In this document: positions 4,613 through 45,383 of the stretch, in pieces
Numbering within the stretch: the first letter of the stretch is position 1
Layout of the letters: the number at the start of each line of letters is the position of its first letter
DNA from: an uncultured Lachnospiraceae bacterium
GTDB lineage: Bacteria; Bacillota; Clostridia; Lachnospirales; Lachnospiraceae
Length of the DNA: 45,532 bases
Direction of reading: 5' to 3'
NCBI GenBank assembly: GCA_947629565.1
Contig: CANREG010000020.1
Span: 1 to 45,532 of the forward strand
Translations under genes and position numbers: made by a program
The notes under the pieces: model-generated
What the model was told of the DNA's origin: nothing
The model's database searches: none
The model's input: the letters and a program-made list of their open reading frames with translations, nothing else

Positions 4613-5723
4613 CAGAACGCACCTCCCAAAGCTGTACATCCGGTACGGGAATATATTTATCCGCGGCTTCCGGACAGATAAAGAGCAGATGATGTCCTGC
4701 TTCCCGCTTTTTGCGGCAGGCCAAAAGCAGGCTTTCTTTCCGGTAATTGGAAATGATAACATAGGTGGTGTTGCGGGTATGGCCGGAAAAAACGGAGCCC
4801 GGCCCGGAAAAGAAGGCTAAAAAGTCTGTCATCTCACGGGACAGGTCAAGCGCTGCCAAGGTGCGGAGAAGATGATGAAAATGCTCTTCCCCGGAGCCAC
4901 AGGCTGTGACAACCGGTCCTTCCGTGTGGGGATCAGTCAGGTTGACCGCCAGCCGTACCGCAAGCCCCCGCTTCTCAATGTGGTAAAGCAGGGTGGCGGC
5001 TACCCGGATTAAGTATTCCCTAAGGTCGTCAGAACGCTGTATGGTGTTCGCGTCTAAATTAAGCAGCAGCACAATTTCACTGCTCTGCACAGCAAAATAA
5101 GTGTTTACCATAAGCTGCTGATTCCTGGCAGAAGCCTTCCAGTTGATATAGCGCATGCCGTCCCGGCTGGTATATTCCCGTATGCCCCGGAAGGAAAGCG
5201 GATCCTCAAACAGAGTCTTTCTGGTAAGCTCCCCCATAATGGAGCTTACTAAGGTCAGCGAAAGCCGGTCTGTAAGGGGAGCCGGATACACATAAAGGCC
5301 GGCCTGGTTTTTTAAAATGGAGGCATAGGTCTTGCGCATAAATAAGTCGTGGGCGACCAGGTTGACCGAATCAATCGGGTAGTATCCCCGTTTGGTCGCC
5401 CGGAACGTCTGTTTCCGGATAATGCGCTGGCGGCCCAAAATGGAAAAAATATCATTCCGGTAGTAGTAATCGGACAGAGAGGAATTATCCTCGGACTGGT
5501 ACAAAAACGTCCGGGAGGAATGAAATTTCACATACAGCACAGGCAGCGGCAAAAGCTTCCGGTTCTCAATCTCCTCGGTGAGCTCGATTACCTCGCCAAT
5601 GTGGGCGTGGTTCCGGCTGTAGCTTACGGTAACCTGCAAATCCCTGTCCCAATATTTCTGATAGAGAAAGGATTGCACAAAATATATAATTAGTGCAGTC
5701 ATTACGGTAAGGATATATTGCAT
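4602..5723 (-). CDS. DUF58 domain-containing protein
   Basis: The protein has 373 residues. One hydrophobic N-terminal segment (about 1-18) anchors it to the membrane. A beta-rich region follows, and then the DUF58 signature YINWKASARN near residue 195, preceded by the conserved F.G.REY.. stretch. The C-terminal half resembles a von Willebrand A-type fold, with VLLLNLDANT near residue 217. DUF58 proteins are nearly always encoded beside MoxR ATPases and are thought to act as their targets or adaptors in assembling or activating envelope complexes. AAGGAG precedes the ATG. It lies 11 nt downstream of moxR and overlaps the following gene by 11 bp, so it is part of one minus-strand operon. Confidence 0.88.
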   Translation of the reverse strand: MQYILTVMTALIIYFVQSFLYQKYWDRDLQVTVSYSRNHAHIGEVIELTEEIENRKLLPLPVLYVKFHSSRTFLYQSEDNSSLSDYYYRNDIFSILGRQRIIRKQTFRATKRGYYPIDSVNLVAHDLFMRKTYASILKNQAGLYVYPAPLTDRLSLTLVSSIMGELTRKTLFEDPLSFRGIREYTSRDGMRYINWKASARNQQLMVNTYFAVQSSEIVLLLNLDANTIQRSDDLREYLIRVAATLLYHIEKRGLAVRLAVNLTDPHTEGPVVTACGSGEEHFHHLLRTLAALDLSREMTDFLAFFSGPGSVFSGHTRNTTYVIISNYRKESLLLACRKKREAGHHLLFICPEAADKYIPVPDVQLWEVRSDEI

Positions 5724-5734
5724 AAAGGACTCCT

Positions 5735-6688
5735 TTATCGGTCAAAGTCTTCCGTGGGTACCGGTATGGTTGACATAATATCATCTAAAATGGAATGGGC
5801 AAGGGCCTGTCCTCCGGCTCCATTCAACGTGAGAAGACGGTGTCCAAGGCATGGTTTTACCAGATATTTCACATCCTCCGGGGTTACATAGGAGCGGCCA
5901 TTAATCAGGGCGAGGCTCTGGGAAAGCCGCACTAAGCTTAACATGCCTCTGGGGCTGATGCCCAAAGTTACCTGTCCGTTGTGGCGGGTAGCCTCGACAA
6001 GGTCTAAAATATATTTCCGGATATCCTTGTGCAAATCCACTGCCAAGACAGCCTCCTGCAATCCACTGATCTCCTCTAAGGTACAGACCGCCGTCAGCTC
6101 CTTGGCCATCTGTCCTTCCATAAAACGGTCTAACAGCGTTTCCTCGTCCGCCCGTTCCGGGAATCCCATGGAAATCTTTAAGTCAAAACGGTCTAACTGG
6201 GCCTCTGGTAAAGGGAAGGTTCCCGTGGTCTCAATGGGATTTTCTGTCGCTATCATAAAAAAGGGCTCCATAAGCTTTCTGGTCACTCCGTCGGTAGTCA
6301 CCTGCCGTTCCGCCATGGCTTCTAACAGACAGGACTGGGTTCTGGGCGTGGCCCGGTTAATCTCGTCGGCCAATAAAATATTGGTAAAGACGGGGCCCGC
6401 AATAAATTCAAACTCTTGTTTCTTCTGATTGTACACATTGATTCCGGTCACATCCGTCGGAAGCAGGTCCGGGGTAAACTGCACCCGTTTAAAGCTTCCT
6501 GCGATGGAGGCGGCCAAAGACCTGGCTAACATGGTCTTGCCGGTACCCGGCGTGTCCTCCAATAAAATGTGCCCCTTTGCGAAAAGAGCGGTGAGCGCTA
6601 ACTTAATCTGCTCGTCCTTTCCCACGATTATTTTCTGAATATTTGACATAAGGCGGCTGGCGGCCTCATTTGCTGTGTTTACATCCAT
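5735..6688 (-). CDS. MoxR-family AAA+ ATPase
   Basis: The protein has 317 residues from ATG 6688, which has CAGGAG seven bases upstream. An upstream in-frame ATG at 6760 lies inside the promoter and is rejected. The Walker A motif is EDTPGTGKT (44-52) and Walker B is ILLADEINRA. Sensor and arginine-finger regions are ATENP and LDRF, all typical of MoxR. MoxR ATPases act as chaperone-like remodelers, commonly of von Willebrand A-domain partners. It is the first gene of the moxR-DUF58-DUF4129-maf operon, so the natural client is the membrane complex formed by the next two products. Signals activating the operon are not visible beyond the sigma-A-type promoter at 6732-6760. Confidence 0.93.
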   Translation of the reverse strand: MDVNTANEAASRLMSNIQKIIVGKDEQIKLALTALFAKGHILLEDTPGTGKTMLARSLAASIAGSFKRVQFTPDLLPTDVTGINVYNQKKQEFEFIAGPVFTNILLADEINRATPRTQSCLLEAMAERQVTTDGVTRKLMEPFFMIATENPIETTGTFPLPEAQLDRFDLKISMGFPERADEETLLDRFMEGQMAKELTAVCTLEEISGLQEAVLAVDLHKDIRKYILDLVEATRHNGQVTLGISPRGMLSLVRLSQSLALINGRSYVTPEDVKYLVKPCLGHRLLTLNGAGGQALAHSILDDIMSTIPVPTEDFDR

Positions 6689-8548: not shown

Positions 8549-8621
8549 GGAATCTTAGCTCAGCTGGGAGAGCATCTGCCTTACAAGCAGAGGGTCACAG
8601 GTTCGAGCCCTGTAGGTTCCA
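8549..8621 (+). tRNA. tRNA-Val (anticodon TAC)
   Basis: A cloverleaf can be drawn by hand. The acceptor stem pairs GGAATCT with AGGTTCC and leaves discriminator A. The D arm is GCTCAGCTGGGAGAGC. The anticodon stem TCTGC/GCAGA carries loop CTTACAA, giving anticodon TAC. The T arm carries GGTTCGAGCC. CCA is not encoded. Confidence 0.96.
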
Positions 8622-8626
8622 TTTAT

Positions 8627-8700
8627 GGCGGGGTAGCTCAGTTGGCTAGAGCATGCGGTTCATACCCGCAGTGTCGGGAGTTCAAATCTCTTCTCCGCTA
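8627..8700 (+). tRNA. tRNA-Met (anticodon CAT), elongator type
   Basis: The acceptor stem GGCGGGG pairs with CTCCGCT, with discriminator A. The anticodon stem TGCGG/CCGCA carries loop TTCATAC, giving anticodon CAT. The stem lacks the three G-C pairs of initiator tRNA, and the first base pair is formed (G-T), so an elongator is preferred. A lysidine-modified tRNA-Ile2 is less likely but not excluded. It lies five bases after tRNA-Val in one transcript. CCA is not encoded. Confidence 0.93.
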
Positions 8701-28340: not shown

Positions 28341-29132
28341 GTGATTAATTGGTTTGTGGGATTAAATCCGGTCTGGCAGGGATTGCTTGCCACTCTGTTT
28401 ACTTACAGCGTAACCGTACTTGGGGCGTCCCTGGTGTTTTTCTTTAAATCCGTAAACCAGCGGATGATGGATGTAATGATGGGATTTGCCGCAGGCGTTA
28501 TGATTGCGGCCTCTTATTGGTCGCTGCTTGCGCCTGCGATTGAGCTTTCCGAAAGCCTCGGCAGAAACCCGGTTTTTTATGTTTCTGTCGGCTTTGTCTG
28601 CGGAGGGCTTTTTATTATGCTTTCCGATATGCTTTTGGCGGGCAGAACATGCTGCAGGCAGGACAGGAAAAAATGGGTGCGGTGTATCCTGGTTACTACC
28701 GCAGTTACCATGCATAATGTCCCGGAGGGGCTGGCGGTGGGCGTAGCTTTTGGCTGCGCTGCCATAGAGGGAACAAAATCCGCTCTGATGGGCGCAGTCA
28801 TGCTGGCAGTCGGCATTGGCATACAGAATTTTCCGGAGGGCACATGCGTGGCAATGCCCTTGCGGCGGGAAGGCATGTCCCGGTGGAAAAGTTTCGTCAT
28901 CGGACAGTTTTCCGGCTTTGTGGAGCCTATTGCCGGCGTCATTGGCGTACTGGCCGCCCTCAAAGTACAATTAATATTGCCGTTAGCCCTTTCTTTTTCT
29001 GCCGGTGCCATGATCAGCGTAGTATGCTCGGAATTAATCCCCGAATCCTTCCGGGACAGCAAGAATCTGGCTACCGCCGGAGTCATGTCCGGTTTCGTTG
29101 TCATGATGATCCTAGACGTAGCCTTAGGATAA
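28341..29132 (+). CDS. ZIP-family metal transporter (GufA-like)
   Basis: The protein has 263 residues with about eight hydrophobic spans. The metal-site motifs are in TM4 (MHNVPEGLAVGVAFG) and TM5 (GIQNFPEGTCVAMPLR). The Gln at the second site is usual in the GufA-type subgroup. A short charged loop with CCRQDRKK separates TM3 and TM4. ZIP proteins carry zinc or other divalent cations into the cytoplasm. The start is GTG at 28341, supported by GGGAG eight bases upstream, and no other start is near the first membrane span. The stop lies only 7 nt before the giant palindrome, so that element would form the 3' end of its mRNA. Confidence 0.92.
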   Translation: MINWFVGLNPVWQGLLATLFTYSVTVLGASLVFFFKSVNQRMMDVMMGFAAGVMIAASYWSLLAPAIELSESLGRNPVFYVSVGFVCGGLFIMLSDMLLAGRTCCRQDRKKWVRCILVTTAVTMHNVPEGLAVGVAFGCAAIEGTKSALMGAVMLAVGIGIQNFPEGTCVAMPLRREGMSRWKSFVIGQFSGFVEPIAGVIGVLAALKVQLILPLALSFSAGAMISVVCSELIPESFRDSKNLATAGVMSGFVVMMILDVALG

Positions 29133-29139
29133 TCCCTTA

Positions 29140-29680
29140 ACCCTTCAGCCTTCCTATATCCTGTCCGCCCCGTCTGACCGCTGCCCTGCTGTTATCCGCC
29201 GTTTTTTATCTGCGGCTCCGCCAAAGGAAATCTATCCGGTTTTTCCTACACTGGTTTCGGTTTTAAGAAATCCTGCCGCCGTCCGTCCTGCATATTTTAT
29301 TGCACGTGCTCTCGAAGAACTCGCACCGGGAAGGGGTGACTGGGAAACATCTAAAGCCCCTTTGAAAACGCCGGTACTTGCGGAGGGGAATAGAGACTTG
29401 TCTCATGATACAGTCTGAATCCCCCTCCGCTTATGTACCGCTGCGTTTTCAACAGAGCGAAAGCGTGGCTTAAGATGTTTGCCCAGCACCCCAAACCCGG
29501 TGTTCAGACACTTCTCCGCACGTGCATTATGCAGGACCGGACGGCGGCGGATTTCTAAAAAACCGCGTGTCAGGAAAAACCGGATAGATTTCCTTTTTGG
29601 CGGTATGCCGCATATACGCTAAGCGGATAACAGCGGGGCAGCGGTCAGACGGGGGATGCAGCCGTTAGGGGCTGAAGGGT
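29140..29680. repeat. Giant imperfect palindrome (about 540 bp), no coding content
   Basis: The two arms are complementary from ACCCTTCAGCC/GGCTGAAGGGT at the ends to GCGGAGGGG (29380-88)/CCCCTCCGC (29422-30) near the apex. Uninterrupted blocks include 29168-29199 with 29623-29654 (32 pairs, one G-T) and 29226-29247 with 29572-29593 (22 pairs). Further blocks are 29266-29293 with 29529-29556 (27 pairs, two single-base bulges) and 29301-29309 with 29518-29526. By hand I count about 170 base pairs. Between blocks the arms diverge strongly (29151-29167, 29200-29210). The right arm has an extra GC-GAAA-GC mini-hairpin near 29457-29464. It fills the whole gap between the ZIP gene and purE. It could be a MITE-like element, a foldback remnant or a long structured RNA. 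No transposase is present. Confidence 0.92.
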
Positions 29681-29709
29681 ATAAAAATAAAATAAAAGGG
29701 AGAAAAGGC

Positions 29710-29737
29710 TTGCAAAAGATTTTTTATGGTATACAAT
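29710..29737 (+). promoter_or_regulatory. Promoter of purE
   Basis: TTGCAA, 16 bp, TACAAT, starting 30 bp after the palindrome ends. The leader is about 30 nt. No purine riboswitch or PurR box is evident. Confidence 0.55.
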
Positions 29738-29772
29738 GTTATAGAGAAAATGTTGAAAGAAAGGAATAAAGG

Positions 29773-30261
29773 ATGAAGGTTGCGATTATTATGGGTTCTA
29801 CCAGTGATTTGGCCAAGGTGGAACCGGCAGTAGATGTATTGAAAAAATATGGAGTAGAGGTTCAGGTGAGATGCCTGTCTGCCCACAGGGCCCATGCAGG
29901 TCTTTCACAGTTTATTGAGGAGACGAATACAGACGGAACAGAGGTTATTATTACTGCGGCGGGAATGGCAGCAGCCCTTCCGGGAGTTGTGGCTTCCCAG
30001 ACCGTATTGCCGGTTATCGGCGTGCCCCTTTCCGGTTCCGTATTAGATGGTATGGATGCACTGATGTCCATCGTTCAGATGCCGCCGGGAATCCCGGTAG
30101 CTACGGTTGCCATTAATGGCAGCAAAAATGCGGCCTATCTCGCATTACAGATTATGGCGGTTAAGCATGAAAAGATTAAGGACAAGCTGCTTGAGGAACG
30201 AAAGGGAATGGAAGAAGCTGCCATGAAAGCCAATGCGGAGGTCATTGCAAAATTTCAGTAA
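29773..30261 (+). CDS. purE: N5-carboxyaminoimidazole ribonucleotide mutase
   Basis: The protein has 162 residues, the normal class I PurE size. The N-terminal substrate loop is GSTSD (8-12), followed by SAHRAHAGL and the GMAAALPGVVASQTVLPVIG active-site stretch. It converts N5-CAIR to CAIR in purine synthesis. The ATG follows AAAGGAATAAAGG. No purK follows. The next gene downstream is a secreted SGNH hydrolase, so purE is separated from purC and purMND, which lie elsewhere in this window in their own units. Confidence 0.97.
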   Translation: MKVAIIMGSTSDLAKVEPAVDVLKKYGVEVQVRCLSAHRAHAGLSQFIEETNTDGTEVIITAAGMAAALPGVVASQTVLPVIGVPLSGSVLDGMDALMSIVQMPPGIPVATVAINGSKNAAYLALQIMAVKHEKIKDKLLEERKGMEEAAMKANAEVIAKFQ

Positions 30262-45244: not shown

Positions 45245-45336
45245 AGAAATCCCCGCCGGAGATTTTTGCGTGGCGCACGTGCAAAGAAGTGTGTAAGAAC
45301 AGGGATTGGGGGTGCTGGTTCTTCATAAGCACGTGC
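45245..45336 (+). repeat. Short, diverged relative of the giant palindrome
   Basis: Blocks AGAAATCC (45245), GCACGTGC (45275), AGAAGTGT (45285) and GGGGTGCTGG (45309) occur in the same order and nearly the same spacing as in the complement of the right arm of the palindrome (29482-29556). A second GCACGTGC at 45329 and AAGAAC-AG/CTGGTTCTT give it its own local hairpin. Non-coding, between radA and the promoter at 45384. Confidence 0.6.
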
Positions 45337-45383
45337 AACAAATTGTGCAGAGGGGCGGAATGTCAAAAAAGTGAAAAAAGTGG

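Follow-up and report, generated by a model that had tools for sequence, protein, structure and literature searches.

A long intergenic palindrome of Lachnospiraceae, probably an old MITE-like element with arms corrected at the DNA level

ERIC, BOX and REP/REPIN are dispersed intergenic imperfect palindromes, present in tens of copies per genome, and the element analysed here is like them in this respect. It is unlike them in being much longer, in carrying a conserved asymmetric tip and in having no single conserved arm sequence. Integron attC sites, folded single strands with bulged bases, an unpaired spacer and a variable terminal structure, offer another comparison; the likeness to the tip-bearing element is a resemblance only, and no GTT/AAC core motif was noticed in the latter. 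By kind, we regard the elements as MITEs: as MITEs do, they combine small size, many copies and absence of coding capacity with, in related carriers, terminal inverted repeats and target duplications and, for one of the two carrier types (carrier A), an autonomous partner. What is new, and unlike MITEs, is that nearly the whole element is palindromic, that a single tip is found in two types of carrier whose ends are unrelated and whose target duplications differ in length, and that the arms co-evolve within each copy in what appears to be visible arm correction. Template-switch mutation at quasipalindromes is a related process. According to PMC8604942, template switching between inverted repeats homogenises arms and inverts the spacer; according to PMC8794818, it can preserve hairpins through compensatory changes of several bases. 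The element has both arm homogenisation and spacer inversion in common with these quasipalindromes; the difference is that a mobile family provides dozens of natural replicate palindromes per genome. The titles and abstract openings covered, mostly outside subscription journals, contain no description of these elements.

The element lies in the window, that is, the whole stretch of 45,532 nucleotides analysed, at about 29137-29683, between a ZIP gene (PF02535) and purE (PF00731), the latter downstream. Repeat search and folding both bore out the inverted repeat recognised by the initial annotation. It does start 7 nt past the ZIP stop codon (29130-29132), and 29140-29680 holds no ORF of at least 50 aa. 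The proposed folding check gave one long hairpin for 581 nt of the palindrome region, with an RNA MFE of -357.1 kcal/mol; shuffled versions average -183.2 (sd 7.0), which gives z = -24.8, and 0 of 100 shuffles was as good. Three pairing blocks had been described: the one of 32 was recovered as such, that given as 22 measures 25 by repeat search, and the third is indeed bulged, because it is only 74% complementary when ungapped. Mismatches between the arms had been said to cluster, which is real, and the inner blocks are conserved between copies. The parts of the element are as follows, carrier B being a MITE type described below.

29137..29683, plus strand: whole palindromic element, probably a degenerate carrier-B-type MITE, long form (fold, repeats, copies, ends)
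29137..29150, plus strand: probable left terminal repeat TTAACCCTTCAGCC, 11/14 to the carrier-B end GTAACAGTTCAGCC
29670..29683, minus strand: probable right terminal repeat TATACCCTTCAGCC, 9/14 to the carrier-B end, weak alone
29140..29222, plus strand: outer left arm, copy-specific sequence, of low conservation among copies, pairing with the right arm in most
29597..29680, plus strand: outer right arm, copy-specific, complementary to the left arm
29168-29199/29623-29654: arm block 1, 32 nt, 97% complementary (repeat search)
29223-29247/29572-29596: arm block 2, 25 nt, 100% complementary (repeat search)
29261-29294/29528-29561: arm block 3, 34 nt, 74% ungapped (repeat search)
29240..29345, plus strand: inner left arm, conserved, with conserved unpaired blocks (0.78-0.99 per 10-nt bin, 26 copies)
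29486..29590, plus strand: inner right arm, conserved (0.75-0.97 per 10-nt bin, 26 copies)
29346..29479, plus strand: hairpin-tip module common to the family (model R1, 140.5 bits here)
29362..29377, plus strand: tip helix P2, 5' strand TTGAAAACGCCGGTAC, 15/16 P2 pairs changed on both sides
29435..29452, plus strand: tip helix P2, 3' strand, with a conserved 2-nt CT/TT bulge at 29441-29442 (69-tip alignment)
29380..29430, plus strand: apical hairpin, its length and sequence varying between copies (copy comparison)
29457..29464, plus strand: small hairpin P4 with GNRA-type loop GAAA (29459-29462), both stem pairs covarying

The BLASTN count showed the element to be multicopy. Its own genome (2.63 Mb in 100 contigs, 85% complete) gave at least 47 matches at E <= 0.01, a number that counts the element's matches to itself on either strand and is a lower bound, obtained with 40 of 71 candidates scored; the larger matches are 76-87% identical and lie in both orientations. 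The sister species G020 gave at least 41 (40 of 60 candidates scored). Most own-genome loci have a counterpart in G020 with matching flanks, mostly at 92-98% identity. When 97 other genomes were searched with the whole element (at most six candidates scored per genome), the long form was found in G020 only, and two further genomes gave just a 33- or 40-nt match. Multicopy, short and without coding capacity, the element is in these respects a MITE. The dozens of copies in the two genomes rule out a one-copy element. They also, with the family-wide tip, refute a decaying one-off inverted duplication, a most improbable origin to which only the imperfection of the arms would lend itself. At 45311-45350 the window also has a short 80% match to an element arm, possibly a fragment or a chance match.

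Conservation and arm profiles were drawn from 26 fuller copies of the 34 aligned, the 8 partial ones being left out. The inner part (about 29240-29590) is conserved and the sequence outside about 29170/29650 is not. Though copy-specific in sequence and length, the outer arms are mutually complementary in most copies.

The centre of the element (29346-29479) is a module of about 100-140 nt. It is composed of helix P1, a long helix P2 interrupted by a conserved bulge of 2 nt, an apical hairpin that varies, and a further, small hairpin whose loop we take to be of GNRA type. Stable DNA hairpins with similar loops are known. In 69 tips the bulge reads CT (53), TT (15) or CA (1), and the GNRA-type loop is found in 68. 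Both features persist despite the arm correction described below and are therefore probably under selection. We conjecture, as our preferred reading, that the tip could be a structure for mobility or for palindrome tolerance; it may also have a role as RNA. Two further arrangements of the tip were observed: at L154:959-1623 (G173:C59) a unit of 164 bp, with its own tip and stem, is repeated 4.1 times in tandem, and, by eye, a second, different palindrome is nested in the apical loop of tip-bearing elements in G014 (L394, L396).

Covariation between homologous copies, the test suggested by the initial annotation, is present: it reaches 0.454 for the 22-pair tip structure against 0.175 shuffled (0/500 shuffles; MAFFT alignment, 69 of 81 rows used), and collapses when the structure is slid. 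Together with the GNRA-type loop and the conserved bulge, this is what one would expect of a functional structured RNA, a multicopy regulator or processing signal in which selection on the transcript keeps arms and tip paired. A model-fitted alignment, A3 (reduced from 92 to 82 rows by removal of 7 antisense rows and exact duplicates), goes in the same direction, with 142 G-T/T-G cells versus 20 A-C/C-A cells. We dropped this wobble polarity, because the A3 columns are fitted by the model and both the MAFFT alignment (core helices, mismatched cells: G-U 21 vs A-C 24) and the ortholog test presented below give ratios close to 1:1. Nor does the element match any of 4227 Rfam families at gathering thresholds, where the window gave only two tRNAs; with E up to 5, the single hit obtained from L001, L063, L069 and L070 is at chance level and lies outside the element. 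A known Rfam RNA family was rejected for want of a match. Orientation relative to codirectional genes, 32 antisense versus 14 sense in a first set, was 21 versus 26 in a second, and the antisense bias was dropped as not replicated, which again counts against an RNA. The two tRNA genes of the window are adjacent, at 8549-8621 and 8627-8700.

The distribution of the tip was established with a covariance model (R1). All 26 genomes of the genus gave matches, with 78 for the element's own genome, 81 for G020 and between 1 and 67 for each remaining member, some copies being counted on both strands in these totals as the tip is nearly palindromic. Across the family, 101 of 299 genomes have it at E <= 0.01, under stricter filters and with no more than 11 candidates of any genome scored. 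Samples of the order (20 of 246 genomes) and of the class (10 of 391), both at E <= 1e-5, gave positives that are all Lachnospiraceae. An exact-pattern scan of a named genome collection returned 117 stretches; among the 80 listed, labels were Lachnospiraceae bacterium, Robinsoniella, Fusicatenibacter, Acetatifactor (these last three being Lachnospiraceae), Roseburia and Agathobacter, plus one Clostridium, one Clostridiales bacterium and one Mogibacterium MAG (L242, JAFRDH010000020.1), the last label belonging to another family, Anaerovoracaceae, which may reflect mis-binning or transfer. The family name given to tip hosts rests on such collection labels. A scan of viral contigs with one exact tip pattern gave no match, and blastn of one short copy found no match in plasmid and phage records; a phage, plasmid or viral origin thus has no support.

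Relatives of the tip ride on two MITE kinds. Carrier A, in G013, is about 216 bp long; its copies are near-identical, are bounded by TAGGYRNTTGCGAAAC and bear the tip at their centre. Of 7 G013 copies read on both flanks, 4 have target duplications, which measure 9, 9, 11 and 13 bp. At one of these sites (9-bp duplication) the flanks are 233 nt apart, versus 17 in G005 and 14 in G002; G004 has other sequence there and G014 a related element in opposite orientation, because of which loss of the element in G005 and G002 is also conceivable. An autonomous IS with carrier-A ends and without tip was identified at L410:924-2676 (G002:C9; 1.75 kb), the only carrier-A-end pair of its kind found by pattern in G002. 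Its 491-aa transposase has DUF772 above cutoff and DDE_Tnp_1_6 below, and we call it IS1182-like only, because its score against the IS1182 model NF033551, 77.5 bits, is under the NCBIfam cutoff of 270.

Carrier B has the ends GTAACAGTTCAGCC. Exact 8-bp target duplications flank it at L200, L233 and L252, with a tip in all three. These are 3 of the 6 carrier-B pairs shorter than 1 kb; L312, L313 and L270 have the tip without the duplication. The L252 copy (5463-6161; 8-bp duplication AATTTTTA) is a composite carrier-B element of 699 bp, in which the tip hairpin is joined by what looks by eye like another long palindrome. No autonomous carrier-B partner with a transposase-sized ORF was found, and a 1633-bp carrier-B pair in L290 was rejected as an autonomous IS for lack of such an ORF.

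The relatives are thus multicopy, bounded by terminal repeats and target duplications, absent from one site in two congeners and, for carrier A, accompanied by an autonomous IS. The many copies and these features of the related carriers support the non-autonomous foldback element that the initial annotation had listed among its options. In the window copy, 11/14 (left) and 9/14 (right) positions match carrier B, the mean best match of shuffled sequence being 7.8/14. Carrier-B-like ends are found at similar distance on both arms of L035, L040, L043 and L045; many of the 23 long copies examined (11 partial copies of 34 rows were left out) have no carrier-B end. Because its ends TTAACCCTTCAGCC and TATACCCTTCAGCC resemble carrier B and recur in those four copies, the window element is, judged by its sequence, probably an old, enlarged carrier-B-type MITE with degenerate ends. 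Insertion borders gave a mixed outcome: target duplications are present in carriers A and B, and none was seen, by eye, at the window copy. For long-form copies generally, neither a target duplication nor a clean empty site was found, the empty-site comparison covering L040 only. We infer that the window copy arose by transposition of the same kind, its ends having since degenerated and no target duplication having survived.

Another origin for the arms was considered in the light of the secY-adk spacer. Among 20 loci of the genus, five have a tip directly downstream of secY (G004, G014, G007, G013, G005) and 15 have no model match. The G001 secY spacer contains, by eye, a carrier-A-type element with a degenerate tip. 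All five secY-adk spacers folded form hairpins, plain in G002, G015 and G000 and tip-bearing in G004 and G013, and the plain G002 spacer has an outer CGCTAC...GTAGCTG common to the five tip-bearing ones. Within L345-L364, the plain hairpins differ in sequence among the congeners folded. Such spacers would suit an intergenic hairpin domesticated by the host, as a terminator, an attenuator or an RNase III site, that acquired a tip, the arms being native. So would L035 and L043, where pairing extends beyond the terminal-repeat-like sequence, a point which transposition alone does not explain and which stands against our preferred explanation. This extra pairing could come from insertion into a hairpin loop or from later arm extension; in L043 the sequence AAATCCCCGGC is terminator-like by eye. 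The related carriers, however, are mobile and make target duplications. A consensus scan of 29000-29900 gave no terminator-like site at the element (loops of 3-8 nt only; weak evidence), and a promoter-like site for purE lies at 29710-29737, downstream of the element (consensus scan; weak evidence). We therefore hold host domestication to be quite improbable.

A variant of the mobile-element reading would make the tip itself the selfish unit, spreading from hairpin to hairpin and entering the loops of unrelated palindromes such as MITEs and secY-adk-like spacers; we give this a low probability. By analogy, its recognition might operate on a folded single strand, much as for attC, and the 'arms' would be the last palindrome occupied, which we find similarly doubtful.

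The evolution of the arms was followed in 22 copy pairs between G000 and G020 with more than 85% identity; the totals do not include L053/L086 (73%). Where both sides changed, the outcome was another Watson-Crick pair in 54 cases and something else in 3; single changes led to G-T in 37 cases, A-C in 39 and other mismatches in 33, and 3421 base pairs are unchanged. Four of the 22 pairs are at rearranged loci and are not strict orthologs (L048/L093, L049/L089, L041/L091, L052/L092); L048/L049 and L093/L089 were matched the other way round in an earlier locus comparison. The 18 pairs without rearranged loci gave 28 both-sided Watson-Crick, 3 other both-sided, 29 G-T, 32 A-C and 21 other changes. 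With or without the rearranged loci, double changes are far commoner than expected from independent single changes, and the single-change intermediates show no preference for the wobble that RNA tolerates. One boundary class supplied 31 stems that are close relatives (31 of 33 stems of the named set), with 24 distinct left stems among them; here the positions that vary between copies do so on both arms in 2194 cases and not in 855, counted over all copy pairs.

Mismatches read on the plus strand lean weakly, and with opposite sign, in the two sets counted: G-T 89 versus A-C 124 in long-form arms (p 0.02; 12 of 34 rows left out) and 43 versus 25 in family-wide stems (p 0.04; 75 of 99 kept, those below 12 pairs being dropped). 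Rows are not independent, as copies share ancestry, and these p-values are not to be trusted. One boundary class of stems gave 12 G-T versus 4 A-C. Of 25 long copies (9 of 34 rows left out), 19 have the better fold on the minus strand. The family-wide excess and the better minus-strand folding are weak strand leanings of the sort a structured RNA could produce, but those of the tip stems and of the long arms favour opposite strands, and the ortholog pairs stand at 37 versus 39. A structured RNA is therefore, in our estimation, unlikely. Selection on RNA pairing and a double-stranded-RNA regulator, both suggested in the initial annotation, find no support in the arms, since arm mismatches show no consistent preference of G-U over A-C. 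Gene conversion between the arms in DNA, its other suggestion, fared better, being supported by the coordinated arm changes and by inversion in place. Because double changes abound, intermediates show no wobble preference and bodies invert in place, the data point to complementarity being maintained by DNA-level arm correction and not by selection on RNA pairing. Inverted duplication of a host flank, proposed from an arm of L034 reaching into a gene, was rejected as a contig-end artefact: the G020 ortholog L073 breaks the pairing, with 47 one-sided breaks against L034. L034 was left out of the long-form mismatch count and kept in the 22-pair and inversion counts.

Comparison of G000 with G020 at 16 loci collinear on both flanks showed the body of the element to be inverted in place at 6 (L033, L038, L042, L045, L046, L050); the window copy is among the other 10. 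Seven further pairs have fewer than two usable flanks: the body agrees with the one usable flank at L031, L034 and L048 and disagrees at L041, L052 and L053, and L049 has none. By eye, L086 has its apical loop in the opposite orientation to that of L053. These flips could partly be assembly choices, as draft assemblies may choose the wrong orientation. Flanks are apparently exchanged between L041/L052 and L091/L092 and between L048/L049 and L089/L093, which suggests recombination between element copies in the two species.

Taken together, we consider it probable that the element is an old, non-autonomous, transposable MITE-like palindrome whose arms correct each other in DNA. It would belong to a superfamily almost confined to Lachnospiraceae, as far as sampled, in which a conserved tip of about 100-130 nt is carried on palindromic arms ending in the terminal repeats of at least two insertion-sequence kinds, and would be moved in trans by the transposases of those insertion sequences. 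After insertion, the arms of each copy would correct each other. Homogenisation is visible in the pattern of changes itself; the enzymology would be replication-fork template switching or intra-palindrome conversion. Such correction would preserve complementarity, let the sequence drift from copy to copy and flip the centre in place.

The family amounts to a natural experiment in palindrome evolution: a genome offers dozens of hairpins as replicates, the arms of each hairpin change in concert with no consistent wobble preference, and the centres are found flipped from one sister species to the other. The family also cautions that covariation, even where it is strong and would normally be taken to prove a conserved RNA, can arise from DNA repair of palindromes; the count of G-U versus A-C helps to tell RNA selection from DNA repair. 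The tip common to unrelated MITEs also raises a testable question, namely how a hairpin tip benefits a transposon.

One locus had been a candidate for a lineage-specific insertion of the long form, L040, and was rejected, as G020 holds a truncated element there. Beside this truncated element, in DNA absent from L040, G020 has an ORF of 339 aa whose C-terminal part contains repeated units rich in tyrosine and glycine (L422:3720-4739, G020:C35).
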